DNA of 54,502 nucleotides from Candidatus Thermoplasmatota archaeon (GTDB lineage: Archaea > Thermoplasmatota > SW-10-69-26 > JACQPN01 > JAIVGT01). Both the position numbers and the translations under genes were made by a program. The notes under the pieces are model-generated. The model was not told where the DNA came from and did not search any database. It saw only the letters and a list, made by a program, of their open reading frames with translations. Shown here piece after piece: positions 13,514 to 28,757 of this stretch. The DNA lies in NCBI GenBank assembly GCA_035541015.1, contig DATLFM010000019.1, positions 1 to 54,502 on the forward strand, read 5' to 3'. How positions within the stretch are numbered: position 1 is the first letter of the stretch; the number at the start of each line of letters is the position of its first letter.

Positions 13514-13521
13514 CTATATAG
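13514..13521 (+). promoter_or_regulatory. TATA box of thioredoxin-like array, first unit
   Basis: CTATATAG centred near 13518 predicts transcription from about 13544. AGGAGG at 13548-13553 then lies at the very start of the message, nine bases before the TTG start at 13563. Confidence 0.7.
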
Positions 13522-13562: not shown

Positions 13563-14960
13563 TTGGCATTCGGGAAGCTGGCAGCATTGGCCATTGCGGC
13601 AGCGGTCGTGGCCGGATCCGGCGTGGCGCTCTTTGCGCTCAACGGGAGCGGGGGCGACGCGCCTGTGGAGCCGGCATCGACGACCACGCCCCCGGCGCAA
13701 CGTCCGGTCGACCTTTCGCCGATCCGCGACGTGCTTCTTGCGCAAAGCTTCGTCTTCAACCCGCTTTCCATCCAGCCCCTGGCCAAGACCGTGTTCACCG
13801 TGGACGCGGCCAAGGGCTACAACATGGTCCAAGTGGACATCGCAGGCGACCTCCAGGGCGCGTATGCGACCGCGTTGCCCTCGATCAAGATCAAGGACCC
13901 GAGCGGAAGCGTCGTCGTCGACTACAGCCGGCAAGCCCGCTTCGGCTACCCGTCGATCCCAGCCAACCCCGTCACGGGCCCCTACGAGGCGCGTCCCTTT
14001 ACGATCGCTTCCCTGTGGAAGTTCGCGCCGGGAGAGTACACGGTCGAGGTAAGCGGCGTCTCGACGCCCATCACGCTCAGCATCTTGGGCCTTCGCGGAG
14101 CCGCGCCCGACTTCACGCTTGCCGACGCCCTCGGCAAGGGCACGATCCAACTTTCCGAGCTTCGCGGCAAGGCCGTCATCGTGGACCTCTTCGCCACGTG
14201 GTGCGGCCCCTGCAAGGCGCTCATGAAGACGTTCGCCGAGATCTACCCGCAGTACGCGCGCGAGCAGCTGGAGATCGTGAGCGTCGACGTCGACCCCGCC
14301 GAGAGCGATGCGGACATTCGCTCGCTGTTCGAGAGCAATGGCTGGGCCTGGTACGCCGGCATGGACGACGGTACGGTGGATGCAAACTACGGATCGGGCT
14401 ACATCCCGACGATGGCCGTCGTCAACGCGCAGGGCCTGCTCGTCTACCGCCACATCGGAAGCGGCATCACCGCAGAGGAGCTCAAGGCGATCATCGACCA
14501 CGCGATCGCCGGATCGCCGGTTGCGACCGCCAGCTCGGCCGTCTCCGCGCTTGTCGTCACGAACCTGCGCCTTGCCAAGCCCGCCGTGCAGCCCGGCGAC
14601 GACCTCGAGTTCCGCGCCGACGTGAACGACGCTGGCCTTGTCACGGAATCGTACTTCACCGTCTGCCGCGCCGACCCGCCGCCGTACACGTGCTTTGCCA
14701 AGGTCCCCATGACGCTCCAGGGAACGACGCTTGTCGGAACGACCGCGGGCAACGCGGAAGTCCCCAAGCTCGAGAACGGCTGGGACATGGAGCTCCACCT
14801 GTTCGTGCGGGACGCCACCGGCAAGCGGCACGAGTACCCCGAGAACGACGCCTACCGCTTCACCGTCGGCGCGTCCTCGGCCGCCGCCGTCCCCGGGCTT
14901 GAGCCCCTGCTCGCCCTTTCGCTCCTGGGCGCCGCTGCCCTTGTCCTCCGGAGGCCGTAA
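13563..14960 (+). CDS. Membrane-anchored TlpA-like thioredoxin protein, paralog 1, with C-terminal sorting tail
   Basis: Extracytoplasmic thiol-disulfide protein, 465 residues. The N-terminal membrane helix (ALAIAAAVVAGSGVALFAL) is followed by a beta-rich domain (about 45-180) and a TlpA/ResA-like thioredoxin domain with TWCGPCKALM and the cis-Pro segment GYIPTMAVV. Unlike the next four paralogs it continues with a beta domain of about 115 residues and ends in VPGLEPLLALSLLGAAALVLRR, which resembles a PGF-CTERM archaeosortase tail with Leu for Phe. TTG 13563 is chosen as start: AGGAGG lies nine bases upstream and the helix begins at once, as in the paralogs. Two bases separate it from paralog 2. 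Likely substrates are cysteines of exported proteins; direction of transfer is unknown. Confidence 0.85.
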   Translation: MAFGKLAALAIAAAVVAGSGVALFALNGSGGDAPVEPASTTTPPAQRPVDLSPIRDVLLAQSFVFNPLSIQPLAKTVFTVDAAKGYNMVQVDIAGDLQGAYATALPSIKIKDPSGSVVVDYSRQARFGYPSIPANPVTGPYEARPFTIASLWKFAPGEYTVEVSGVSTPITLSILGLRGAAPDFTLADALGKGTIQLSELRGKAVIVDLFATWCGPCKALMKTFAEIYPQYAREQLEIVSVDVDPAESDADIRSLFESNGWAWYAGMDDGTVDANYGSGYIPTMAVVNAQGLLVYRHIGSGITAEELKAIIDHAIAGSPVATASSAVSALVVTNLRLAKPAVQPGDDLEFRADVNDAGLVTESYFTVCRADPPPYTCFAKVPMTLQGTTLVGTTAGNAEVPKLENGWDMELHLFVRDATGKRHEYPENDAYRFTVGASSAAAVPGLEPLLALSLLGAAALVLRRP

Positions 14961-14962
14961 AC

Positions 14963-15907
14963 ATGCTGAAACGAACCGTCGCCATCGGAATCGCCGCCGT
15001 CCTCGTCGCCACCTCGGCCGCCGCGCTCGTCGCGCTGCAGCCGCCGGCGGCAAGCGAGGAGCCCGTGAACCCGCAATCGCAAACGTCGCCGGCGGAGCCG
15101 CCGGTTGCGGAATCGAAGCTTCTGACGCCCGTCGAGGACGTGCTCTTGGAGCTTCCCGCCGCGCTTGCGCCGGTGGCCGTGCCGCTGGACCTCGTGTACA
15201 ATTTCAAGGTTGACAAGGAATACGGCATCCTTCGCGTGGAGGTCCTTGGGCCCGGCGGCGCCGGCCTGCTCAACAACGCCGACGTGAAGGTGATCGGGCC
15301 CTCGGGCGACGCCGTGATCCACTATTCGGGCAGCGATCTCCTCATCCCCAACAAGCGCGACCCGACGAACGCGAAGCCCACGATCCTCGGCTTTGCGCTC
15401 AACCCGGAGCCGGGCGCGTACAAGCTGCAGCTTCAGGGCGTCTCGTCGGCCTTCAAGCTCACGGTGTGGGGCATCGCGGGCGTCCCCGCGTTCGAATTCG
15501 CGATCGCCGACGCCTTTGGCAAGGAGGCCGGCACGCTGTCGGACCTGCGCGGGCGCGTGGTCATCATCGACCTCATGGCGACCTGGTGCGGGCCCTGCAA
15601 GGCCGCCATGGACGTCTTCAACGAGGTGTACGGCGAGTACAGCCGCGACGAGTTCGAGATCGTGAGCGTCGACGTCGACGCCCGCGAGAGCGAGGACGAC
15701 CTGCGCACCCTCTTCGAGAAGGAGGGTTGGGCGCAGTGGTACGCCACGATGGACGATGGCACGGTGAACGCCGAGTACGGATCGGGCTTCATCCCGACCA
15801 TGGCGATCGTCGATCCCAACGGCGTGCTCATCTATTACGAGATTGGCATGAAGATGAACGCAGACGAGCTCCGGGATCTCATCAACCGGGCGCTCGGAAA
15901 GCAATAG
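14963..15907 (+). CDS. Membrane-anchored TlpA-like thioredoxin protein, paralog 2
   Basis: 314 residues, with the array's common plan: N-terminal signal anchor (VAIGIAAVLVATSAAALVAL), Ser/Pro/Glu linker, beta-rich domain (about 55-185, containing VKVIGPSGDAVIHYSG and PGAYKLQLQGV) and thioredoxin domain with TWCGPCKAAMD and GFIPTMAIV at the cis-Pro site. The active-site Trp, both Cys and the Pro are intact, so a redox function is expected outside the membrane. It lacks the extra C-terminal domain and tail of paralog 1. Start ATG 14963 is two bases after the paralog 1 stop, and the two are surely co-transcribed. Confidence 0.85.
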   Translation: MLKRTVAIGIAAVLVATSAAALVALQPPAASEEPVNPQSQTSPAEPPVAESKLLTPVEDVLLELPAALAPVAVPLDLVYNFKVDKEYGILRVEVLGPGGAGLLNNADVKVIGPSGDAVIHYSGSDLLIPNKRDPTNAKPTILGFALNPEPGAYKLQLQGVSSAFKLTVWGIAGVPAFEFAIADAFGKEAGTLSDLRGRVVIIDLMATWCGPCKAAMDVFNEVYGEYSRDEFEIVSVDVDARESEDDLRTLFEKEGWAQWYATMDDGTVNAEYGSGFIPTMAIVDPNGVLIYYEIGMKMNADELRDLINRALGKQ

Positions 15908-15926
15908 GGCATCGGGAGGTCAACGC

Positions 15927-16886
15927 ATGAACGGGAATCTACTGATCGTGGGTGTCGTGGCCGCCTTCGTGGTTGGAGCCGCCGCGCTTGTCGCGGTGTC
16001 GCCGCCGCCGGCGAGCGAAACGGGTGAAGAACCGTTGTCGACCGCAGCGCTGGGCGAGGAGACCTCGACGGCCGCGCGTCCGCTGGATCCGGCCAACGAC
16101 CTCCTCTTCAAGGCGAAGTTTGCCGCGCCGCCGACGGCCTTGGCGGGGACCACGAAGTTCACCGACAGCTTCACCGTGGACCGCGACTACAATTTCCTTG
16201 AAATCGGAACGGGCGACGAGGGCGTCTGGGCGCCCGCCGTGAACGTGTACAAGATTCGCGTGTACGACCCCGAGGGAACGCTCGTGGCCGACACCGACTG
16301 GTCCGGCGGCCTGTTCCCCTGGGTTTCGCTCCCCAACGACCGCACGTGGCCGAGCGCCTCGGTCGTGGCCCCCGCGCACGGCACCTACGCGATCGAGGTC
16401 GAGCTCTCCGCGGGCTTGACGGCCATCGTTTCGGCCAGCGGCATCGCGGGCCCCGGCGCCGACTTCTCCACCGAGGACATCCTGGGCAAGGGAACGTTCA
16501 CGCTCTCGGAGCACCGCGGCAAGGTCGTGCTCATCGACCTCATGGCCACCTGGTGCGGCCCGTGCAAGCGCGCCATGGCCACGCTCGCCGAGGTCTACGA
16601 GTCGTACGATCGGTCCCAGTTCGAGATCGTGAGCGTCGACGTGGACACGGACGAGACGGAGGAGGACCTCCGCAACTTCATGCAGACGTACGGCGGCGTC
16701 TGGTACGCCGGCTTCGACGACGGCCCGCGGTTTGGCGGCACCGTCTCGAAGGGCTACGGCACCGGAGCGATCCCCACGATCGCCATCATCGACCCGGCCG
16801 GCAACTGGATCTTCCGCCACGTCGGAAGCGACATCACCGCAGACGAGCTGCGGGCCATCATCGACGGCGCGCTCGCGAGCGCCTGA
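15927..16886 (+). CDS. Membrane-anchored TlpA-like thioredoxin protein, paralog 3
   Basis: 319 residues. Signal anchor (LIVGVVAAFVVGAAALVAV), acidic linker, beta-rich domain (YNFLEIGTGDEGVW, KIRVYDPEGTLVADTDW, HGTYAIEVELSAG), then thioredoxin domain with TWCGPCKRAM and GAIPTIAII. The beta domain is much closer to that of paralogs 4 and 5 than to 1 and 2, so this copy links the two halves of the array. A GGGAGG about eight bases before ATG 15927 supports the start. Last gene of the first transcription unit: a 139-base gap with its own TATA box follows. Confidence 0.85.
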   Translation: MNGNLLIVGVVAAFVVGAAALVAVSPPPASETGEEPLSTAALGEETSTAARPLDPANDLLFKAKFAAPPTALAGTTKFTDSFTVDRDYNFLEIGTGDEGVWAPAVNVYKIRVYDPEGTLVADTDWSGGLFPWVSLPNDRTWPSASVVAPAHGTYAIEVELSAGLTAIVSASGIAGPGADFSTEDILGKGTFTLSEHRGKVVLIDLMATWCGPCKRAMATLAEVYESYDRSQFEIVSVDVDTDETEEDLRNFMQTYGGVWYAGFDDGPRFGGTVSKGYGTGAIPTIAIIDPAGNWIFRHVGSDITADELRAIIDGALASA

Positions 16887-16979
16887 CGCCCCGCATCGGC
16901 GCCGTCGCGCAGGCGGCGGCGCCGGCGGGCAACTTCCCATCTTCCAGCGGAGCCGCCGGGAGCTGGGGGATCAGAATTC

Positions 16980-16987
16980 TTAAATAG
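16980..16987 (+). promoter_or_regulatory. TATA box of array, second unit
   Basis: TTAAATAG centred near 16983 predicts transcription from about 17009. GAGGAGG at 17013-17019 then lies six bases before the ATG at 17026. This splits the array into a 1-2-3 unit and a 4-5-unknown unit. Confidence 0.7.
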
Positions 16988-17025
16988 CCACTCGCTCCCT
17001 CGAAACCGGGTCGAGGAGGCCTAGG

Positions 17026-17967
17026 ATGTTTCGCGCCAAGCCCGCAGCAGCGCTCGCAGTCGCCCTGTTCGTTGTCGGCGCGGCGATCGTCGCCACCCCG
17101 CCTCCGGTTCCGCTGGAGCAGGCCGCTGTCTCCCACACGCGCGAGGATCCGCCCGCGATCGGCGGACGACCGTTGCCGCCGGCCGACGACCTGCTGTTCG
17201 ATCAGCGGTTTGAGGGCTCGGGCGCGGGCGGCAAGCACTCGTTCGAGTCCTCCTTCACGGTCGAGCGCGAGTACAACTTCCTCGAGATCCGGCTGGGTGC
17301 CGACGGCCTCATGGGCGCCGGGTGGACCTACGAGGTCCGCATCCTCGATCCAGAGGGGAACGTCGTGGCGGACCTGGAATACGACATCGGCCCCTTCCCC
17401 TGGTACGGCCTCCCATCGATGGGAGTGACGAGCGACACCTCGCCGGCGGCGTCCGTTCTCGTGCCTCTCCAAGGCTCGTACGCGGTCGAGCTTGAAGTCT
17501 CGGGCGGGATGACCGCCATCGTTGCGGTCCGAGGCGTCGCCGGCAAGGCCGCCGACTTCACGATCGACGACGTCCTCGGGAAGGGCACCTTCCGGCTGTC
17601 CGAGCAGGCGGGCAAGGTCGTGCTCGTCGAGCTCATGTCCACCTGGTGCTCGATCTGCCAGCGAATGGCCCCGAAACTCCAGACGATGTACGAGTCCTAC
17701 GACCGAGCGCGCTTTGAGCTGGTGGGCGTGGACACGGATGTCAAAGATACGAAGGAAGGCCTGCGCCACTTCATGGAGTCCCACGGCGCGACCTCGTACG
17801 CAGGCATGGACGACGGCACCGTGATCAAAGCCTACGCGGGCGGCCAGACCGGATGGCCCCGTTGGGCCGTCGTCGACCCCGCTGGAAACTGGATCTACGC
17901 CAACGCGGGCGAGGTTCCGATCGAGGAGCTGCGCGCGGCGATCGACGCTGCGCTGGACGGGCGTTGA
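17026..17967 (+). CDS. Membrane-anchored TlpA-like thioredoxin protein, paralog 4 (CSIC)
   Basis: 313 residues. Signal anchor (ALAVALFVVGAAIVATP), beta-rich domain (YNFLEIRLGADGLMGAG, VRILDPEGNVVADLEYD), and thioredoxin domain. The active site is TWCSICQRM instead of CGPC, which in thioredoxin folds shifts redox potential. At the usual cis-Pro position the motif is GWPRWAVVD instead of GxIPT. This copy is therefore expected to differ in partner or role from paralogs 1-3. It has its own TATA box and ribosome site. Paralog 5 starts three bases after its stop. Confidence 0.83.
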   Translation: MFRAKPAAALAVALFVVGAAIVATPPPVPLEQAAVSHTREDPPAIGGRPLPPADDLLFDQRFEGSGAGGKHSFESSFTVEREYNFLEIRLGADGLMGAGWTYEVRILDPEGNVVADLEYDIGPFPWYGLPSMGVTSDTSPAASVLVPLQGSYAVELEVSGGMTAIVAVRGVAGKAADFTIDDVLGKGTFRLSEQAGKVVLVELMSTWCSICQRMAPKLQTMYESYDRARFELVGVDTDVKDTKEGLRHFMESHGATSYAGMDDGTVIKAYAGGQTGWPRWAVVDPAGNWIYANAGEVPIEELRAAIDAALDGR

Positions 17968-17970
17968 GCG

Positions 17971-18927
17971 ATGGCGACAAGGAGAATCGTCGTCGCCGGT
18001 CTCGTCGCCGTGGTGGTGGGCCTTGGCGCCTTCGCGTTGCTGGCGCCGCCTCCGCCTGCCGGGGACCTGCAGGCCACGAGCGAACGCGAACCGACCGTCG
18101 CCGAGCTACCCCTCGCGACCGCCGACAAGGTGTTCCACCGGACCTTCGAGCCCCCCATCCTGTCGGCCGAGACGGTGCTCCGTTACTCGGACCGTTTCAC
18201 GCTTTCGAAAGACTACAACTTCGTCGAGGTGGGCCTCGGCAAGGAAGGCACGGCCACGACGCAGACGACGTTCAACGTTCGGATCATCGGCCCCGACGGC
18301 ACGGTCGTATCCGACGTGCGCTGGCCCAACGACCGCCCCGAGCTCGTCTACGGCTGGAATCCCCTGGACCGCAACGAAGCCACGTGGTTCATCCGGGACT
18401 CGGTCATCGCGCCGCCGCGCGGCGAGTACCGCCTGGAGGTGGAGGCGTCCCGCGAGATCGCCCCGCGCGTGACGCTCCAAGGCTTCGCCGGCGCCGCGGC
18501 CGACTTCTCGACGCAGGACGTGCTGGGGAAGGGAACGTTCCGGCTCTCCGAACAGGGCGGCCGCGTCGTCGTCATCGACATCATGACGACATGGTGCTCG
18601 CCGTGCATCGAAAGCATGCCGATGCTCGTCGACGTGTACGAAGCGTACCCGCGCGACCGGGTCGAGTTCGTGACGCTCGACCACGATCTGAAAGAGTCGG
18701 AGCAGACGCTTGCCTCGTTCATGCGCGATCACGGAGCGACGTGGTACGCCGGATTGGACCGAGAGCAGGTGGTGTGGGCCTACGCGCAGAAGGGCACGAG
18801 CCGACCGTTCCTCGCCGTGATCGATCCCGCGGGCCAATGGATGTACCGGCTGGCCGGCGAGGACCTGTCGCCCGACGACCTTCGCAAGGCGATCGACGCG
18901 GCGCTGGGGCACGGAAGGAGCCGTTGA
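17971..18927 (+). CDS. Membrane-anchored TlpA-like thioredoxin protein, paralog 5 (CSPC)
   Basis: 318 residues. Signal anchor (IVVAGLVAVVVGLGAFALL), beta-rich domain (YNFVEVGLGKEGTA, VRIIGPDGTVVSDVRW, RGEYRLEVEASREI) and thioredoxin domain with TWCSPCIESM. The cis-Pro stretch is TSRPFLAVIDPAG. The conserved entry into the thioredoxin domain (DVLGKGTFRLSEQGG) is nearly identical to that of paralogs 3 and 4. Start ATG 17971 lies three bases past the previous stop; a GGCG-rich but weak ribosome site suggests translational coupling. Followed after one base by the gene at 18929. Confidence 0.83.
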   Translation: MATRRIVVAGLVAVVVGLGAFALLAPPPPAGDLQATSEREPTVAELPLATADKVFHRTFEPPILSAETVLRYSDRFTLSKDYNFVEVGLGKEGTATTQTTFNVRIIGPDGTVVSDVRWPNDRPELVYGWNPLDRNEATWFIRDSVIAPPRGEYRLEVEASREIAPRVTLQGFAGAAADFSTQDVLGKGTFRLSEQGGRVVVIDIMTTWCSPCIESMPMLVDVYEAYPRDRVEFVTLDHDLKESEQTLASFMRDHGATWYAGLDREQVVWAYAQKGTSRPFLAVIDPAGQWMYRLAGEDLSPDDLRKAIDAALGHGRSR

Positions 18928-18928
18928 C

Positions 18929-19450
18929 ATGGGCTTGTTTGGCGGACGCAAGCAAGAGCCATCCGCGAGGAATCCCGAGGAGGCGCGGGAGAATGCCATC
19001 GACGCCTGGCGTGAGATGCTCGTGAAGGATCTCGAGAGGAGGTTCGAGGAGCCTTTCGTCTCGCGTGCGCTTGGCGCCGCGATCGCAAAGAGCGTCAAGG
19101 TGCTTTGTCGCGAGGCTCCAGAAACCGCAAAGCAGGCGGGGCCAACGGGCCTCGCGGAACACGCCCTTGGCCAAATCGCGTCGAGGCGCGACATCGTCGT
19201 CAAGGACGCGGCGAAGACCATCATGGCGATGTACGCCACCGTGGTCATGCCCTCGGACCCCGAGATCGTCGCGTTGGCGGAGGCGAGCGGCCGGACGGGG
19301 CTCATGCGGGAGTACTTTTTCGCCGAATTCGCGGAGAAACAAATGCCGCAGTGGATCGGACTTGCCGAGGCCGGGTACGAAGAGGCCTTGACCGTCGCCA
19401 CGGCGAAGGACTCCAAAGACCGGCTCGCAGCCCACCTTCTGAAAGCCTAG
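18929..19450 (+). CDS. Small soluble helical protein, unknown function
   Basis: 173 residues, no membrane segment, no cysteine pair. It contains one Cys (VLCREAP) and is predicted by eye to be largely helical (REMLVKDLERRFEEP, DAAKTIMAMYATVVM, MREYFFAEFAEKQM). I do not recognise the family. It begins one base after the stop of thioredoxin paralog 5 and shares its transcription unit, so it may be a cytoplasmic partner of that array, but nothing in the sequence shows how. It ends 33 bases from the convergent CDF-like gene. Confidence 0.7.
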   Translation: MGLFGGRKQEPSARNPEEARENAIDAWREMLVKDLERRFEEPFVSRALGAAIAKSVKVLCREAPETAKQAGPTGLAEHALGQIASRRDIVVKDAAKTIMAMYATVVMPSDPEIVALAEASGRTGLMREYFFAEFAEKQMPQWIGLAEAGYEEALTVATAKDSKDRLAAHLLKA

Positions 19451-20135: not shown

Positions 20136-20399
20136 TCACGCGGGCCGGGCTTCGTACCCGGTGTCGGCCACGGCTTTCACGAGCGCATCCACGGGCGTGT
20201 TGGGGTCCGCGTCCACGCGCGCCTCGCCCTTCTTGAGGTCCACGTCGGCTCGGTGCACGCCCGGAACGCCCCGCAGCGCGTCGCCCACGTGCCGCACGCA
20301 GTTGGCGCACGTCATGCCGTCCACCTTCAAGGTCACCAGCTTTCCCTTGGGGGCCGCGGGTGCGGTTTCCTCTTTCTTTCCGAACGAGAACCAGCTCAT
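20136..20399 (-). CDS. copZ: Copper chaperone CopZ-like, HMA domain
   Basis: 87-residue cytoplasmic metallochaperone. After a 20-residue lead ([12 protein letters not shown], then Ala/Pro/Lys) comes a complete HMA ferredoxin-like domain with the Cu(I)-binding [11 protein letters not shown] motif at residues 28-38, and a GYEA end typical of the fold. The start codon overlaps the copA stop by four bases (ATGA), so it is translated with the ATPase to which it would deliver Cu(I). The domain resembles the N-terminal HMA domain of the adjacent CopA ([15 protein letters not shown]), suggesting an origin by duplication within the operon. Confidence 0.92.
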
Positions 20400-22729
20400 A
20401 GGGGGACCTCCGTCGGCGCCGTTGCGGGCGCGGCCGTTCGCGGGCGCCTCGCCGCGCGGCGCCGGATGTGGGGAACGTAACGGCCCAAGAGGCGGCTGTT
20501 GGCCACGACGCTCACGCTCGAGAGCGCCATCGCGCCGGCCGCAAACGCCGGGTGCAGCGTGACGGGCGAGCCGAAGACGGGCCAGGCCGTGAAAAGGCCC
20601 GCCGCCACGGGGATGAGAACCGCGTTGTAGCCGAAGGCCCATAGCAGGTTCTGGCGAATCTTGCGCATGGTCGCGCGGGCAAGCGCCAGCGAGGCGGGCA
20701 CGTCGGCGGGGTCGTCCCGCAGGAGGATGATCTCGCCGGTCTCCTTGGCCACGTCGGTGCCCGCGCCCATGGCGATGCCCACGTCCGCCCGGGCGAGCGC
20801 GGGAGCGTCGTTGATGCCGTCGCCCACCATGGCCACCACGCGGCCCTTCTCCCGCAGCTTGGCGATCTCCTCCGCTTTGCCGTCCGGCCGCACGCGCCAA
20901 AGCACGTTTCGCACGCCGGCTTGCGCCGCGATGGCCCGCGCCGTGCGCTCGTTGTCGCCCGTGATCATCCAGAGGTCGGCTGGCGCAAGGGCGGCGACGG
21001 CTTCCCGCGCGCCGGGCCGGAGCGTGTCCGCGAGGGCCACGACGCCCGCCACGCGGTCGTCGAGGGCGACGAAAACGACGGTCTTGCCCGCCGCCTCGAG
21101 TTGTGCGGCCGAGGCTGCAAGCTCGGGCGGCGGCGCGCCGACGAGCTCCGCCGTTCCCACGGCGACGCTGCGGCCGGCGACGACCGCGCGCACGCCCTGT
21201 CCGGGAACGGCCGAAAAGTCGGACGGGCGCACGACGGAAAGGTTCCGCCGCGTCGCCTCCCGCACGACCGCGGCGGCCAGGGGGTGCTCGCTTGCCGACT
21301 CGGCCGACGCGGCGGCCGCAAGGAGCGCGGTTTCGTCGACCCCCGGGCTCGTCGCGAGGTCCGTCACGCGGGGGGTTCCCTGCGTGAGCGTGCCCGTCTT
21401 GTCGAAGACGACCGTGTCCACGCGCGAGGCGCGCTCGATGGACTCGCCGCCCTTGAACAGGACGCCGAACTGCGCGGCGCGCCCGGTTCCCACCATGATC
21501 GCAAGCGGCGTGGCAAGCCCAAGCGCGCAGGGGCAGGCGATGATGAGGACCGCCACCGACGCCAAGAGCGCGAAGGCCAGCGGCTCGACACCAATTGCGA
21601 GCGCCGTGTCGGCACCCGGCCCATTCCAATACGCGAAGGTCGCGGCCGCAAGGACCATGACGACCGGGACGAACCACGCGCTCACGGTGTCCACGTAGCG
21701 CTCGATGGGCGCCCGGCGCGACTGCGCCTCCGACACGAGCCGGACGATGGCGGCAAGCACCGTGTCCTCGCCCACGCGGCGCGCCTCGAACACGACGCTT
21801 CCGTTCTGGTTCACGGTGCCGGCGACGACCTCCGAACCGGGGCCCTTCTCGATCGGCACGCTCTCGCCGGTGACCATGGACTCGTCCACGCTCGTGCGCC
21901 CTTCGAGCACGACGCCGTCCACGGGGATCTTCTCGCCCGGCCGGACGACCACGCGATCGCCCACGGCGACCTCGGCCGCGGCCACTTGCGCTTCCGCGCC
22001 TTCGCGCAGGACGCGCGCCGTGAGCGGGCGAAGCTCCAGGAGCCGGCGCACGGCCGCGCTCGCGCGGCTCTTGCCCAAGGCCTCGAGGTACTTGCCAAGG
22101 AGAATGAGGGCGATGACGGCGGCTGCGACCTCGAAGTAGATCGCGTGGCCCGGCAAGGCCTCGGGAGCGAGAACCTCGGTCGCCGAGTACCCGAACGCGG
22201 CCGTCGTTCCGACGGCGATGAGCGTGTCCATGTTCGCGCGCCGGTTGCGAAGGGCCTTCCACGTCCCGACGTAGAAGACGTACCCCACGCCAAACTGCAC
22301 GGGCGTCGTGAGCGCAAGCTGCAGGAGATCGAAGCCGGGGAAATCGAGGCCCGCGAACATGTGCGCCATGGCGAGCACGACGACCGGGGCCGCAAGCGCC
22401 GCCGCGACGACGAACCTCCGCCATCGCGCGTTCACCTCGCGCTCGCCTTGGTGCTCGTCCTGCGCGTCGAGGACCGTGTAGCCGGCGCCCTCGACGGCCG
22501 TCGCCAGCGCCTCGACCCGCACGTCCGGCTCGGCGAGCACGGTCGCCTGCTCCAACGCCAAATTCACGCGCGCCTCGCGCACGCCGGGGACCTTCTGGAG
22601 GGCGTTGCCGACGTTGCGCACGCAGCTTGCGCACGTCATGCCGCCGATCGAGAGGGTGACGTGGGAGACCCCGTCCGACCGGCGGTCTGCCGAGGGGTCT
22701 GCGGCGGCCGGGTCGGGAGACTGCTTCAT
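20396..22729 (-). CDS. copA: Cu(I)-exporting P-type ATPase CopA
   Basis: P1B-1 copper-exporting ATPase, 777 residues. One N-terminal HMA domain (GMTCASC at about 30-36), then the eight-helix transport core. The ion-binding CPC in [13 protein letters not shown] is near residue 396, the phosphorylated Asp in [11 protein letters not shown] near 443, the P1B hallmark HPLAAAV follows in the N domain, and [10 protein letters not shown] is near 635. [11 protein letters not shown] and the Met/Ser signature of helix 8 support Cu(I). It is the first gene of a copA-copZ-CDF unit. It diverges from the TRASH-domain regulator across 78 bases that contain a near-perfect palindrome, so control by that regulator is likely. 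Confidence 0.96.
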
Positions 22730-22765
22730 GGAGACAGGGTAGGGGCCGGGGGGCTATGTGCCTTC

Positions 22766-22785
22766 GGCTTGACAAACGTTAAGCC
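22766..22785. promoter_or_regulatory. Palindrome GGCTTGAC-AAAC-GTTAAGCC, likely copper operator
   Basis: Eight-base arms with one mismatch in the copA/regulator divergent gap, nested within a wider GGGGGGCT (22748-22755) / AGCCCCCC (22782-22789) pair. On the minus strand CTTAACG may be part of the copA core promoter, so a bound regulator could block or recruit the transcription machinery. Assignment to the adjacent TRASH regulator is inference from position. Confidence 0.6.
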
Positions 22786-22807
22786 CCCCCGTCGGCCTTC
22801 CGCGGGC

Positions 22808-23407
22808 GTGAAGCTCGACGCGCTCGACTCCCGCATCCTCGAGATCCTCCGGCAGGACGCCCGCGCGTCGTACCGGGAGATCGCCCGCCGCACCGGCTCC
22901 ACGACGCCCACGGTCGCGCGCCGCGTCCGCGCCCTGGAGGAGCTTGGCGTCATCCAGGGGTACGGAGCGCGCGTCGAGTTCGTGCGCATCGGCGGCGTCG
23001 AATCGCTGCTGCTGCTCTCCCCTTCGTCCGGCGCGACGGAGCGCCTGCTTGCCGCGCTTGGGGCGGAGCCCGCCGTCGCCGAATCCCTCGAGCTCGACGA
23101 CGGCACGGTGCTCGCGCGCCTCCTCACCGGAAGCGAGGAGGAGGCGGCCGAGGTCCGCCGCCGCATCGCGAAGCTTCCGTTCGTGCGCGAGGCGGACGCA
23201 CGCCGCGTGCGCTCCGGCAGCCGGCGAGCCGGGCGCGGCTTCGGGACGGGCCGCGCGACGCTCGAGATCCGCTGCTTCCTCTGCGGGGGCCCCCTCCCCG
23301 AGGAGCCCGTCAGCGCTCGGATCGGCGGCAAGCGGGGCTACTTCTGCTGCACGACCTGCCGCGGCGTCTTCCGCGACCGCTACCGGCGCTTGGCGGCAGG
23401 GCGATGA
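22808..23407 (+). CDS. Lrp/AsnC-type regulator with C-terminal TRASH metal-sensing domain
   Basis: 199-residue transcription factor. The N-terminal helix-turn-helix (LDALDSRILEILRQDARAS, then TTPTVARRVRALEELGVI) is of Lrp/AsnC type; a middle effector/dimer region spans about 55-135; and the C terminus (about 150-195) is a TRASH domain with CFLCGG and YFCCTTCRGVF, the treble-clef cysteine pattern that binds metal in archaeal copper regulators such as CopT/CopR. Divergent from copA and overlapped by the cupredoxin gene (ATGA), it is the obvious copper sensor of this locus. GTG 22808 is the start giving a complete HTH; no ribosome site is visible, so the mRNA may be leaderless. Confidence 0.92.
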   Translation: MKLDALDSRILEILRQDARASYREIARRTGSTTPTVARRVRALEELGVIQGYGARVEFVRIGGVESLLLLSPSSGATERLLAALGAEPAVAESLELDDGTVLARLLTGSEEEAAEVRRRIAKLPFVREADARRVRSGSRRAGRGFGTGRATLEIRCFLCGGPLPEEPVSARIGGKRGYFCCTTCRGVFRDRYRRLAAGR

Positions 23408-23940
23408 GACGACCCAAGGGCTTTGTTCCCCGCGCCGTATGCCGCGCCGTGCGCTTCCTCCCGGCCGCCGTGCTCCTTGCCGCCTGCGTCCTCGCGCCGA
23501 GCGCGGAGGCCGCCACCGTCGAGCGGACCGTCCGCGCGCTCGAAGGCGAGGCGTGCGGGAACGCGACCGGCTACTGCTTCGACGTCGCCGAGATCCGCCT
23601 CGCCGCCGGCGACCGCCTGCGCGTCGTGTTCGAGAACCCCGCCGCAAACGCGGACGTGCACAATTGGTGCGCCGACGTCGGCCTCGACCACCACTGCGCG
23701 CCGGCGCACCACGCGCTCGCCCGTCCCGGCGATCCGCCCGCAAGCGTCGAGTTCCGCCTGCCCGTCGCCGGCGCGTTCGACTTCTACTGCGACCCGCACC
23801 GCGCCGTGGGCATGAACGGCGTGATCGTGGTCGAGGGAGCTTCGGGCGGCGAGCGGCGGCAGCCGGGATTCGAGCTTTCGCTTTTCGCGGTCGCCGTTCT
23901 GGGCGCGCTCACGCTTGCGACGCGGGCGCCAAGGGCGTAG
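23404..23940 (+). CDS. Secreted cupredoxin (halocyanin/plastocyanin-like) with PGF-CTERM-like tail
   Basis: 178-residue exported blue-copper-type protein. Signal peptide (FLPAAVLLAACVLAPSAEA) at about 18-36; cupredoxin fold with the first copper His in DVHNWCADV and the C-terminal ligand loop FYCDPHRAVGMNG (Cys, His, Met spacing typical of type 1 copper sites). Extra cysteines (EGEACGNATGYCF, HHCAP) may form disulfides, possible clients of the thioredoxin array. The C terminus QPGFELSLFAVAVLGALTLATRAPRA-like region begins with PGF and a hydrophobic helix ending in Arg, as in archaeosortase-processed PGF-CTERM proteins. The ATG overlaps the regulator stop, so electron carrier and regulator share an mRNA. 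Confidence 0.9.
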   Translation: MRRPKGFVPRAVCRAVRFLPAAVLLAACVLAPSAEAATVERTVRALEGEACGNATGYCFDVAEIRLAAGDRLRVVFENPAANADVHNWCADVGLDHHCAPAHHALARPGDPPASVEFRLPVAGAFDFYCDPHRAVGMNGVIVVEGASGGERRQPGFELSLFAVAVLGALTLATRAPRA

Positions 23941-23999
23941 GGGCCGTGCCGACGTCGCCACATTCAAGGTCCGGCGGGCCGGTCCCCGCAAGAGCGTCC

Positions 24000-24923
24000 A
24001 TGCCACCCACTCGCGCGTTGCGCGCCTTTGAGGCCCTCGGCGTTTCGCTCGTTGTCCTTCTGGCGGGCTGCCTTGGCAACCAGGAACGTCCGGGCGGGCC
24101 TTCCGCAGACTCGAGCCCCGGCGAACCCGCAAGCCGCTTCGTCCACATCCACGGCGTGGCCGTCGATCCCGGCGACCCGACCGTCCTCTTCGTCGCGACG
24201 CACGCGGGCCTCATCCGCGGCACCAGCGGAGACCGGTGGGCCTACGTTGGCGCGGACCGCTCCGATTTCATGGGTTTCACGCTGCACCCAGACGACAATC
24301 AAACGGCGTGGTCGAGCGGGCATCCGGCCGGCGGCGGCAGCCAGGGCGTGCGGCAAACCACCGACGGCGGCCGGACTTGGAGGGTCGTCGCGCTGGGCGG
24401 GCAGGTGGACTGCCACGGCATGGCGGTCGCGCGCGCGAACCCGGACATCGTCTACTGCGCGCACAGCGGAACCGGCTTTTACCGGACCGCCAACCGGCAG
24501 GACTTCGAACGCGTGGCCACGAACGGGCTCGCCGAACCGGCGCTCGTCCTTGCCACGCCCGCCGCCGCGGAGAATACGGTGTACGCGGGCGGCCTCCACG
24601 GCTTGCAGCGCAGCACGGACCGAGGCACGACGTGGACCACCGTCGCCGGAGAAGGGCATGCGGTGACGGCGCTTGCCGCCCACCCGGAGGACGCCTCCGT
24701 GCTCTTCGCCTACTTCCTGCGGGCCGGCGGACTCCAGCGAAGCGAAGACGCTGGAGAGACCTGGATTCCCGCCGGAACCGGCCTCCCGGCGGATGCCGTC
24801 GTCACCGCGCTTGCGATCGACCCGTCCAATCCGGACAGCCTCTATGCGAGCGCCATCACGACGATCTGGCAAAGCGCGGATGGCGGCGCGAGCTGGCACG
24901 TCCTGCGGCGGGGCGACCCCTGA
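24000..24923 (+). CDS. Lipoprotein with Asp-box (BNR/sortilin-like) beta-propeller
   Basis: 307-residue exported protein. A hydrophobic leader ending in VLLAGCLGN forms a lipobox, so Cys near residue 22 is probably lipidated. The rest is a propeller with Asp-box repeats S/T-x-D-x-G-x-x-W seen four times: TTDGGRTW, STDRGTTW, SEDAGETW and SADGGASW. Such propellers occur in exo-sialidase-like and Vps10-like proteins, but no catalytic residues for a sialidase can be named here. An early VHIHGVAVDPGDP segment carries two His that could bind metal. ATG 24000 follows a 59-base gap; location between a cupredoxin and copper-storage genes hints at a surface role in copper or redox handling. Confidence 0.82.
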   Translation: MPPTRALRAFEALGVSLVVLLAGCLGNQERPGGPSADSSPGEPASRFVHIHGVAVDPGDPTVLFVATHAGLIRGTSGDRWAYVGADRSDFMGFTLHPDDNQTAWSSGHPAGGGSQGVRQTTDGGRTWRVVALGGQVDCHGMAVARANPDIVYCAHSGTGFYRTANRQDFERVATNGLAEPALVLATPAAAENTVYAGGLHGLQRSTDRGTTWTTVAGEGHAVTALAAHPEDASVLFAYFLRAGGLQRSEDAGETWIPAGTGLPADAVVTALAIDPSNPDSLYASAITTIWQSADGGASWHVLRRGDP

Positions 24924-25005
24924 CGAGCCCAGAATCCTCATCCGGCGCGCGGGCGGAATCGCCGGCGTCGGAACGCTTAAACCCGTCCGCGCGCGTGGAG
25001 CCTCG

Positions 25006-25314
25006 ATGCCCCATCGGCTCGAGCTCTTCAGCAGCGGCTGCCCGCTTTGCGTCTCGTTCCAGCGCGAGGTCGAGGTCGGCAAGTGCGGCCCGTGCGAGCT
25101 CGAGGTGATCGACGTGCGCGACCCCTCCGCCAAGCCCCGCATGGAAGCCTACGGCGTCCGCGTCGTCCCCACGCTTGTCGTCGACGCGGCGATCAAGGTC
25201 GAAGGGCGGCTCGACCAGCCGTGGATGTGCGGCGACGAGTTCTACGCCATGCTTGCGCAAAGGTATCCATTGGCCAACGCCAGGCTGAAGGAACGATCCG
25301 GCCCGACGCGCTGA
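25006..25314 (+). CDS. Small thioredoxin-fold protein with two CxxC motifs
   Basis: 102-residue cytoplasmic protein. The thioredoxin-fold active site is SSGCPLCVSF (Cys 12 and 15) and the cis-Pro loop is GVRVVPTLVV. A second pair, CGPC at residues 27-30, lies on the first helix, which is unusual and could bind metal or relay electrons. The C terminus contains WMCGDEFYAM. CTTAAAC centred near 24977 is 28 bases from ATG 25006, so the message is probably leaderless. It resembles small glutaredoxin-like proteins found near metal-resistance genes. Its neighbours suggest copper or redox housekeeping. Confidence 0.8.
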   Translation: MPHRLELFSSGCPLCVSFQREVEVGKCGPCELEVIDVRDPSAKPRMEAYGVRVVPTLVVDAAIKVEGRLDQPWMCGDEFYAMLAQRYPLANARLKERSGPTR

Positions 25315-25429
25315 CGACGGGACCCATCGCTTTCGGATGGATGTCCGGCACGCTACGCAAGGCGTCGACCAACGCGCGAGCCGCACCGTCGAACCTTACG
25401 TGCGCGGCGCCGCTGCCCGCCCGATCGCC

Positions 25430-25783
25430 ATGCCCACCCCGCAAACTCAGACGCTTGACCGCGAGATGCAGAACTGCCTGGACGCGTGCACCGACTGTTT
25501 CGAGACGTGCGAGCGCACGCTCGCCTATTGCCTCTCGAAGGGCGGCGACCACGCCCGGCCCGAGCACATCGCCCTGCTCATCGACTGCGCGCGCATCTGC
25601 GAGACCTCCGCGGGCTTCCTCGCCCGCGACTCGCCGCTCCACGGCGCGGTCTGCGGCGCGTGCGCGGAGGCGTGCGAGCGTTGCGCCGAGAGCTGCGAGC
25701 GGCTGGCCGACGACCCCGTGCTCAAGGAATGCGCCGACGTGTGCCGCAAGTGCGCCGCCTCGTGCCGCTCCATGGCCGGCTGA
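25430..25783 (+). CDS. Four-helix-bundle copper-storage protein (Csp/DUF326-like)
   Basis: 117 residues with 16 cysteines arranged on helices: NCLDACTDCFETC, DCARIC, VCGACAEACERCAESC and ECADVCRKCAASC. This Cys-lined four-helix bundle is the hallmark of Csp copper-storage proteins, which bind many Cu(I) ions inside the bundle. There is no signal peptide with start ATG 25430, so it would be a cytosolic Csp3-type store. A longer frame from 25337 adds 31 residues without family resemblance and is rejected. The gene sits in the copper region downstream of copA, its regulator and the cupredoxin. Confidence 0.9.
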   Translation: MPTPQTQTLDREMQNCLDACTDCFETCERTLAYCLSKGGDHARPEHIALLIDCARICETSAGFLARDSPLHGAVCGACAEACERCAESCERLADDPVLKECADVCRKCAASCRSMAG

Positions 25784-26513: not shown

Positions 26514-26531
26514 GCGATGATCATTCATCGC
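26514..26531. promoter_or_regulatory. Operator-like inverted repeat, copy 1 (GCGATGA-TCAT-TCATCGC)
   Basis: Perfect seven-base arms around TCAT. It is followed 22 bases on, start to start, by a second copy, so both face the same side of the helix. The pair lies between two divergent operons and next to the TATA element at 26582-26589. Confidence 0.65.
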
Positions 26532-26535
26532 AACT

Positions 26536-26553
26536 GCGATGATCATTCATCGC
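26536..26553. promoter_or_regulatory. Operator-like inverted repeat, copy 2
   Basis: Same 18-base sequence as copy 1. It ends about 30 bases upstream of the TATA element reading toward the thioredoxin-CcdA gene, a position suited to an activator. For the leftward operon, whose TATA would be TTTAAATA on the minus strand, the same sites lie just past the predicted start, suited to a repressor. Confidence 0.65.
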
Positions 26554-26581
26554 ACGCCTTGGCAAGATCGTCACGACAATC

Positions 26582-26589
26582 TATTTAAA
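26582..26589. promoter_or_regulatory. TATA element between divergent redox/membrane-protein operons
   Basis: TATTTAAA on the plus strand (TTTAAATA on the minus). Rightward transcription would start near 26610, just before GGAGG at 26612-26616 and ATG 26622. The near-symmetric box could also drive the leftward small-membrane-protein operon. Confidence 0.65.
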
Positions 26590-26621: not shown

Positions 26622-28757
26622 ATGCCGCTCAGTCGCCTCGCCGTCACGCTCCTCGTCTCGGTTCTCCTCGTCGGTGCCATTCCGGCGGGCGGCCACCACA
26701 GTGAGACGCTTGCCATGGACGGGGGCGTCCCCCTCTACGCCGGCTCCGGCGGCTCGCTTGCCGTCGCCCCGCCTGCCGATTCCGCCCTTGCCTTCGACGG
26801 AGTCTCCGGCCTCTCGCCGCTTGGCGGCGGCGCAACCTGGCAGGAGATCGCCACGTTTGCGACCGCGCCCCTTGCGGCGCCCCTTTCCGTGAACGGCCCC
26901 CTGCACGCGGCCGTCGTCGCGCAGAGCCGCAACCCCATCCAGCGCGAGACCCAATTCCAACTCGAGTTCGTCTCCGGCGGCCAGACGCTCGCGACGGTCG
27001 TCACGCAGACCATGGCGCTCATGAACCACCCGATGGAGTGGCTCGGCCAGGCGCCGGCGGACTTCGTCGTCCCCGCCGAGGGGTCGCTTTCCGTCACGCT
27101 GCGCGTGAAGACGCTGGGCGGAGGCGGCGAGATCCTGCTTGGCAAGGAAGGCACGCGGTTGCTCCTTCCCGGCTCGCTCCTGTCCGCGCGCCTGGAAGGG
27201 GTGGACGTGCGCGGCGGGATCGTGCACGCCCGCGGCGTGGTGGACGCGCCTTTTGGCGGTGCCACGGTGGACCGCGCCGTCGTGCACGCGATGGGACCCT
27301 TCGGAAGCGAGGAGTCCGCGCGCGCGGCGGAGATGGACGGCAGCGTTCCCATGCTGGGCATGGACGCGCCGCTTCGGCTGCTCGACGCCGAGGGCGGCCG
27401 CGCGCTCGAGTGGGAGTGGGACGCCCGCGGCGTGAGGCCCGGGCACTACCAGGTCATGCTCATGGCCAAGGACGTGACGGGCGCGTGGGTGCACGCCATC
27501 GGCGTCGTCCAGATCCGCGAGACCAACGCGCTCGCCGACGTCTTCGGAGGAATCGCCGAGGCGCTCGGGCTCATCGTGAAGCCGAGCCCCGCGCCCGACT
27601 TCACGGTCCGCACGAGCGACGGCGAGGTGATCCGGCTCTCGGACCTTCGCGGCAAGGTCGTCGTGCTCGACTTCATGGCCACGTGGTGCGTGGCGTGCAA
27701 GAAGCTCATCCCGCCGCTCAAGCAGATGGACGCCAAGTACGGCGACGACGAGATCGTCATCCTGGGCATCGACATCGACCTCACCGAGGACGACGCGATG
27801 CTCAACGAGTACCGCGTGAAGTACGGCACGACGTGGCGCTACGCCATGGACACGGACAAGCTCGCGGACAAGTACGGCGTGTCGGAGATGCCCAAGGTCG
27901 TGTGGATCAACAAGAAGGGCGAGGTGAGCCACGTGATGACGGGCGCGCCCTCGTTCAACGAGTTCGACGCGACCTACAAGGCGTCGGCGGCCGGCGTCGT
28001 CACCGTCTCCTCGGCCGGCGGCGGCTCGGGCTTCCTCGTGCTTGCGTTCCTCGCGGGCGTCTCGGGCTTCTTCAGCCCGTGCGCGTTCCCGCTCCTTCCC
28101 GGCTACATGAGCTACTACCTCGGAAAGCAGAGGCCCGACGCGGCGCTCGACGCCAACGCCCGCAGGCGCGCCGTGCGCAAGGCCGCCGTGGGCGGCACGC
28201 TTGCGGCGGTGGGCATCGTGCTCGTGTACCTCATCGTGGGCGGTGTGATCGCGCTCACGGGCAACGTCGTCAAGGAGTACGTGGCCTACCTTGGCCCCAT
28301 CGTGGCCGTCTCGCTAGTCGTGCTTGGCTTTGTGATGCTGACGAGCTGGACGCTTCCGACGTACCGGATCGGCCAGGCGCTGGGACCGCTCTCGCGCGCC
28401 GTTCGCTCGAAGTCGATCGAGGGCCAGGAGGGCAGCAACCTCGGCCTGTTCGCCTACGGCGTGGGCTACGGCTCGGCGAGCCTGGGGTGCCACGCGCCGC
28501 TGTTCATCGCCGTCGTCCTGGGGGCGCTCCTCGTGGGCGGCTTCGTCGCGGCGCTCACCGCCTTTGCGCTCTACGGGCTTGGCATGGCCGTCTTCATGGT
28601 GGGCGTGACGGTCGCGCTCGGCTACACGCAGGGCGCCTTCGTGAAGCGCCTGCGCAACGCGATGCCGCTCATCAAGAAGGTGAGCGCGATCGTGCTCATC
28701 GTCGTCGGCGTGTACCTCACGTGGTACTACACGATGCCGCTTCTGGGCGGCTATTGA
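26622..28757 (+). CDS. Secreted domain-thioredoxin-CcdA fusion (thiol reductant exporter)
   Basis: 711 residues. Signal peptide (LAVTLLVSVLLVGAIPAGG), an extracytoplasmic beta-rich region (about 25-315), a TlpA-like thioredoxin domain (about 325-450; TWCVACKKL near 356, cis-Pro in SEMPKVVWI), then a CcdA/DsbD membrane domain of about six helices (about 468-711). CcdA cysteines are in FFSPCAFPLLPGY and ASLGCHAPLF. CcdA moves electrons from cytoplasmic thioredoxin across the membrane; here the acceptor is fused on its N-terminal side, whereas DsbD carries its thioredoxin at the C terminus. It could thus reduce the five array proteins at 13.5-18.9 kb. GGAGG five bases before ATG 26622 fixes the start. 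Two tandem inverted repeats lie upstream. Confidence 0.93.
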   Translation: MPLSRLAVTLLVSVLLVGAIPAGGHHSETLAMDGGVPLYAGSGGSLAVAPPADSALAFDGVSGLSPLGGGATWQEIATFATAPLAAPLSVNGPLHAAVVAQSRNPIQRETQFQLEFVSGGQTLATVVTQTMALMNHPMEWLGQAPADFVVPAEGSLSVTLRVKTLGGGGEILLGKEGTRLLLPGSLLSARLEGVDVRGGIVHARGVVDAPFGGATVDRAVVHAMGPFGSEESARAAEMDGSVPMLGMDAPLRLLDAEGGRALEWEWDARGVRPGHYQVMLMAKDVTGAWVHAIGVVQIRETNALADVFGGIAEALGLIVKPSPAPDFTVRTSDGEVIRLSDLRGKVVVLDFMATWCVACKKLIPPLKQMDAKYGDDEIVILGIDIDLTEDDAMLNEYRVKYGTTWRYAMDTDKLADKYGVSEMPKVVWINKKGEVSHVMTGAPSFNEFDATYKASAAGVVTVSSAGGGSGFLVLAFLAGVSGFFSPCAFPLLPGYMSYYLGKQRPDAALDANARRRAVRKAAVGGTLAAVGIVLVYLIVGGVIALTGNVVKEYVAYLGPIVAVSLVVLGFVMLTSWTLPTYRIGQALGPLSRAVRSKSIEGQEGSNLGLFAYGVGYGSASLGCHAPLFIAVVLGALLVGGFVAALTAFALYGLGMAVFMVGVTVALGYTQGAFVKRLRNAMPLIKKVSAIVLIVVGVYLTWYYTMPLLGGY

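Follow-up and report, generated by a model that had tools for sequence, protein, structure and literature searches.

How do archaea keep the cysteines of their exported proteins reduced? Little has been described on this point, and a review of archaeal redox and thiol biology makes no mention of TlpA (PMC7278568). The question is raised by a locus in a 54,502-nucleotide (nt) stretch of DNA (here called the window), which is contig C19 of the 2.2-Mb genome (96% complete) of a Candidatus Thermoplasmatota archaeon and has a GC content of 69%. Five successive genes on the + strand of this window (P1 to P5; positions 13563-18927) encode proteins that combine a putative membrane anchor, a beta-rich domain and a thioredoxin domain, and an earlier note, made from the sequence without database searches, had taken them for a dedicated extracytoplasmic thiol or copper-site maturation system. 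In our analysis, the array is likely to form the centre of a family, specific to this lineage, of disulfide reductases that are tethered to the membrane, face outward and probably receive their electrons from CcdA.

Five tandem genes with intact ResA/TlpA-type thioredoxin domains

The array and its shared plan, as described in the earlier note, are real. Five + strand open reading frames, separated by gaps of 2, 19, 139 and 3 nt (P1/P2, P2/P3, P3/P4 and P4/P5, respectively), each encode a hydrophobic N-terminal segment (read from the sequence), a beta domain of ~120 residues and a C-terminal thioredoxin domain (Table 1). Full-length identity of P2 to P5 to P1 was 30 to 41%, and the beta-domain profile matched each array copy at ~1e-37 or better, so the likeness of the five proteins is not due to chance. 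P1 starts with TTG at position 13563, downstream of an AGGAGG Shine-Dalgarno sequence, and continues beyond its thioredoxin domain for ~120 further C-terminal residues that end in a hydrophobic tail (PGLEPLLALSLLGAAALVLRR). The segment DxLGKGTxxLSE, which had been called conserved, was exact in P1, P3, P4 and P5, whereas P2 deviates and reads DAFGKEAGTLSD.

The AhpC-TSA model of Pfam scored 39.6 to 54.5 bits in P1 to P5 (cut-off, 26), the Redoxin and Thioredoxin_8 models were also over their cut-offs in all five proteins, and the Thioredoxin model was so in four of the five. By profile, the closest solved structures were those of ResA (PDB 4nmu, 3e-23; PDB 1st9, 4e-21). An AlphaFold model of P3 (mean pLDDT, 71) matched ResA structures with TMt values of 0.80 to 0.88 (0.88 for 1st9), and its structural neighbours included Bradyrhizobium TlpA (PDB 1jfu, 4txo and 4txv), also in complex with ScoI or cytochrome oxidase subunit II, and Etrx1/Etrx2. 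The array proteins missed the NCBIfam cut-offs for ResA (NF002854; 50 to 68 bits, at best 67.9, against 170), TlpA (NF047696; 34 to 58 against 230) and DsbE (TIGR00385; 21 to 38 against 123). Judged by profiles and predicted structure, the thioredoxin domains of the array are of the ResA/TlpA type.

The active sites read CGPC in P1 to P3, CSIC in P4 and CSPC in P5. The CxxC motif was intact in all copies of the family, and the cis-proline was kept in all five array members, preceded in P4 and P5 by a two-residue insertion. In the mature proteins, the CxxC pair provides the only cysteines of P2 to P5, while P1 has two additional ones; the family alignment held no invariant histidine or methionine. 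None of the array copies is a pseudogene, and since they are only 30 to 50% identical to one another, yet have kept CxxC and cis-proline in all five cases, they are old and kept by selection. Variation among the five in the two residues between the active-site cysteines, and in the loop that leads to the cis-proline, suggests different clients or redox potentials; on our preferred reading, the family became specialised through such changes in the active site and the groove.

The beta domain: a common predicted fold in an undescribed sequence family

The beta domain had not been recognised from the sequence, and as a sequence family it is indeed undescribed: no Pfam family passed its cut-off, the best being the Hemicentin galactose-binding-like family (E, 0.0012) and PPC (PF04151; E, 0.031). 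Its predicted fold, however, is a common extracellular one. The profile search with the N-terminal domain and the structure prediction that the earlier note had proposed were both run; the former returned each array copy, and the latter, with the domain modelled alone from the five window sequences, gave an antiparallel sandwich of eight strands (pLDDT, 80.8). The top Foldseek match of this model was the archaeal subtilase Tk-SP (PDB 3afg; E, 3.3e-4; TMq, 0.54), and the matches that followed it included CUB and GOLD domains. Tk-SP carries a calcium-binding beta-jelly-roll domain (PMC3599501), and on our reading of the 127-column alignment, the match probably falls on that domain. We assign the beta domain to the jelly-roll fold with moderate confidence, as a resemblance of the predicted model and not as proof of descent. 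The likeness to the Tk-SP/PPC accessory domain of secreted subtilases lies in this predicted fold, but identity was 16%, the PPC score was below the Pfam cut-off and that domain is attached to a protease, whereas that of the array adjoins a thioredoxin. Three further candidate homologues of the domain were rejected: the PPC domain of the window's own subtilase (hhalign probability, 0.2%), the beta region of the TlpA-CcdA fusion discussed below (8.7%) and DUF4369 (no match).

A nine-member family restricted to one sampled genome

A search of the whole genome returned nine family members, namely, the five of the array and four dispersed ones (Table 1), and in nine of nine the beta domain was attached to a thioredoxin. 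The same two modules occur in both orders within the one genome, the order being swapped in the dispersed member on contig C114. In a tree of the thioredoxin domains, the nine grouped together (support, 0.97) and fell into two subfamilies, with the C114 member outside both; each subfamily is present in the array as a contiguous block. The neighbours of the four dispersed genes are arginine-biosynthesis, gyrase, RNA-polymerase/carboxypeptidase and translation genes.

Among 390 Thermoplasmatota genomes (this one included) searched with the beta-domain profile, the domain was strongly detected in none of the other 389, nor was it found in the single other genome of the same family that was searched, which is 76% complete. 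Three weak matches were obtained in relatives (E, 2e-4 to 7e-4), of which two (L137 and L138) proved to be unrelated secreted or membrane proteins, the third (L139) being left unassigned. The class is sampled by seven genomes only, and the one-genome distribution may partly reflect this sparse sampling. Five TlpA genes in a row exceed anything seen in the 60 relatives and eight Bacteroidota genomes sampled. The family is probably an expansion of ResA/TlpA reductases that is specific to this lineage and has undergone domain shuffling.

CcdA and the proposed supply of electrons

The neighbouring CcdA fusion of the earlier note was confirmed, at 26622-28757, and it is the probable electron donor of the array proteins. 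In Bacillus subtilis, CcdA is known to supply ResA and StoA with electrons (PMC9145763; PMC6696091). A Pfam DsbD_TM search had suggested that the fusion was the sole CcdA of the genome; this was refuted by a diverged CcdA, missed by that model, which lies beside a TlpA lipoprotein on contig C96 (L173:9659-11097). A TlpA-CcdA pair like that on C96 was present in five of the six other class genomes (G001, G002, G003, G005 and G006), and to judge from gene order, TlpA adjoining CcdA, at times in tandem, is a recurring arrangement in the phylum.

Three loci of other Thermoplasmatota resemble the array in that TlpA genes lead into CcdA or a TlpA-CcdA fusion. One has two TlpA genes and then CcdA (L165), one has a TlpA-CcdA fusion that closes the contig and is preceded by two TlpA genes in tandem (L164:5763-7663, in genome G037) and one has the fusion alone (L045). 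These loci differ from the array in being shorter and in having neither the beta domain nor copper genes nearby.

We propose that electrons from the cytoplasm would cross the membrane via CcdA (the fusion in the window and/or the second CcdA on C96), would reach and reduce the CxxC motifs of the array and would go on from there to disulfides of exported proteins. The thiol chemistry would be carried out by the C-terminal ResA/TlpA domain, and the jelly-roll domain would serve as a spacer or bind clients. Among the possible clients are copper sites with cysteine ligands, both in the neighbouring proteins and in COX subunit II. Several points weigh against this proposal. Sequence cannot tell reduction from oxidation or isomerisation, and CGPC also fits isomerase roles. 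Between the array and the TlpA-CcdA fusion lie 7.7 kb of other genes, and the true donor could be the CcdA on C96 rather than the fusion. The dispersed member on contig C57 has lost the cis-proline, so catalysis need not be common to the whole family.

Probable transcription units and a possible regulatory motif

Runs of six or more A/T are rare in the window (11 in all, at 69% GC), and three of them, at 13515, 16980 and 26582, form TATA-like boxes that precede P1, P4 and the fusion by 40 to 48 nt (Table 1). The two promoters that had been placed in the array are thus supported, and the sequence favours two transcription units for it (P1 to P3, and P4 and P5 together with a gene for a 173-residue protein), with the fusion as an independent unit. 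The 173-residue gene is probably cotranscribed with P4 and P5. None of the 11 runs lies inside the copper block described below, and no specific 9-mer was common to the array and copper promoters, which give no sign of shared control. An inverted-repeat-like motif of 19 bases (GCGATGATCATTCATCGCA) occurs twice, 22 bases apart, at 26514-26554, immediately before the promoter of the fusion, and a third time, with one mismatch, at 2111-2129 (chance expectation, 0.02); the region upstream of the array lacks it. It is a possible regulator site.

Table 1. Features of the window and dispersed members of the family
Feature	Location	Strand	Description
TATA-like box	13514-13521	+	CTATATAG; 48 nt upstream of P1
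P1	13563-14960	+	465 amino acids (aa); putative anchor, beta jelly-roll domain (predicted), ResA-type thioredoxin CGPC; subfamily A
P2	14963-15907	+	314 aa; putative anchor, beta domain, thioredoxin CGPC; subfamily A
P3	15927-16886	+	319 aa; putative anchor, beta domain, thioredoxin CGPC; subfamily B; structure modelled
TATA-like box	16977-16987	+	TTCTTAAATAG; 46 nt upstream of P4
P4	17026-17967	+	313 aa; putative anchor, beta domain, thioredoxin CSIC; subfamily B
P5	17971-18927	+	318 aa; putative anchor, beta domain, thioredoxin CSPC; subfamily B
173-aa soluble protein	18929-19450	+	Starts 1 nt after P5; matches no known family
CopZ-like HMA chaperone and CopA-type P-ATPase	20136-22729	-	Array neighbours; copper link by position only
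Lrp/AsnC-TRASH regulator, cupredoxin, sortilin/BNR protein, small thioredoxin-like protein, Csp-like DUF326 Cys-rich protein	22808-25783	+	
TATA-like box	26582-26589	+	TATTTAAA; 40 nt upstream of TlpA-CcdA fusion
TlpA-CcdA fusion	26622-28757	+	Signal, beta-rich region, TlpA domain CVAC, CcdA membrane domain with both conserved Cys
Dispersed member	Contig C42, L124:8504-9430		Array-like domain order; subfamily B
Dispersed member	Contig C55, L125		Lipobox LLAGC; array-like domain order; subfamily A
Dispersed member	Contig C57, L126:6521-7450		cis-Pro replaced (KLTSF); adjoins secreted zinc carboxypeptidase; array-like domain order; subfamily A
Dispersed member	Contig C114, L127:5385-6362		Order swapped: thioredoxin first, beta domain second (profile E, 5.7e-30)

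Copper neighbours and alternative roles

That copper genes adjoin the array, as had been claimed, was confirmed (20136-25783); the cupredoxin gene lies at 23449-23940 and the Csp gene at 25337-25783, and a cation-efflux protein gene also belongs to this neighbourhood. With them comes the idea that the array is dedicated to copper-site maturation, keeping the cysteines of CuA (in COX2), cupredoxins and Csp reduced for metallation and so replacing Sco; we hold this to be possible, but unlikely. It is favoured, besides the position of the array, by the genes for a heme-copper oxidase (COX1 to COX3), with a COX2 that has a CuA motif plus a second cupredoxin domain, by the lack of any SCO1-SenC match in this genome and by Bradyrhizobium TlpA, which reduces CuA cysteines (PMC9145763; PMC6696091). 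However, no copper genes are near the dispersed paralogues. The neighbourhood survey proposed in the earlier note covered the TlpA/CcdA loci of relatives, none of which carries the beta-domain family; in the six class relatives, CopA is on another contig than these loci or, in one, ~22 kb away. The array proteins also lack what marks Sco/PCuAC chaperones (conserved His/Met ligands or membership of the SCO1-SenC family), carry no cysteine beyond CxxC except the two in P1 and have no promoter 9-mer in common with the copper genes. SCO matches were obtained in three of the seven class genomes, all lying on TlpA-like genes, and in none of the other three relatives; the absence of Sco is therefore not special to this genome, and no relative has the array. 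Of the earlier claim, the dedicated extracytoplasmic thiol system gains support from the intact ResA/TlpA sites, the nearby fusion and the class-wide TlpA-CcdA pairing, whereas what points to copper-site maturation is adjacency. In a fuller version, the jelly-roll domains would direct each of the five tethered TlpA paralogues to an exported cuproprotein of its own (CuA of COX2, cupredoxins or Csp), the dedicated fusion would power them and copper sites would mature without Sco; we offer this as a speculation that is rather unlikely to hold. Two observations belong beside this discussion. The COX2 gene (contig C95, L169:8061-9470) encodes the CuA motif CAEYCGGAHSAM fused to a second, C-terminal cupredoxin domain with apparent type 1 copper ligands. 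In genome G001, a cupredoxin-like gene (contig C369, L191:3269-3724; read by eye) lies ~0.8 kb from the TlpA-CcdA pair, a weak hint for copper.

Three readings without copper were also considered. Electrons might go to surface peroxiredoxins or methionine sulfoxide reductases (Msr), as with pneumococcal Etrx1/Etrx2, in an extracellular defence against oxidative stress. The place of Etrx1/Etrx2 among the structural neighbours, the large copy number and the aerobic life of an organism with a heme-copper oxidase would agree with such a role, but it is quite unlikely, as none of the family members has an Msr or secreted peroxiredoxin gene beside it. No characterised protein is closer than ResA, and the genome has CcmF-, CcmC- and CcmE-like genes, as would be expected if the array proteins were CcmG/ResA paralogues that reduce apocytochrome c; this we consider improbable, given that the array is away from the Ccm genes, that the DsbE/CcmG model scores far below its cut-off and that the CcmF locus on contig C7 has a TlpA of its own. 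At that locus (L174:2100-6184), the gene for a CcmF-like protein is divergent from that for a lipoprotein of 435 aa with a C-terminal TlpA domain (CVTC), and the CcmC/CcmE-like genes are on contig C30. Cytochrome c maturation thus probably has a dedicated thioredoxin, to which the array would be surplus. A recent neutral tandem duplication without distinct functions would explain the tandem layout and the contiguous subfamily blocks, but is very improbable in view of the divergence of the copies, the CxxC and cis-proline kept in all five and the lack of a pseudogene.

Relation to known systems and significance

The preferred reading, a family of tethered reductases facing outward, has partial counterparts. 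ResA of B. subtilis and Bacillus anthracis (PDB 1st9 and 4nmu), the best match in sequence and fold, is a membrane-anchored outward thioredoxin, as the array proteins are predicted to be, and shares their CxxC and cis-proline, but it is without the beta domain and its one gene belongs to a cytochrome c operon. Bradyrhizobium TlpA, the reductant of ScoI and of CuA of CoxB (PDB 1jfu, 4txo and 4txv), has an anchor, such as is predicted for the array proteins, and the thioredoxin domain, but is also without the beta domain and works with Sco, which the search of this genome did not find. The DUF4369-TlpA lipoproteins of Bacteroidota combine a beta-rich N-terminal domain with a TlpA domain at the cell surface. 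A DUF4369-thioredoxin layout is mentioned in PMC13404670; DUF4369 does not, however, match the beta domain of the array, and a five-gene array was seen in none of the eight Bacteroidota genomes sampled.

Against the sparse description of how archaea keep exported cysteines reduced, this locus offers a defined set: one reductase fold in nine copies, joined in either order to a new accessory domain, beside a likely electron donor. If the copies differ in their clients, they would represent a general reductase specialised through an added domain, and if copper clients were confirmed, the array would account for the assembly of a CuA oxidase in the absence of Sco.

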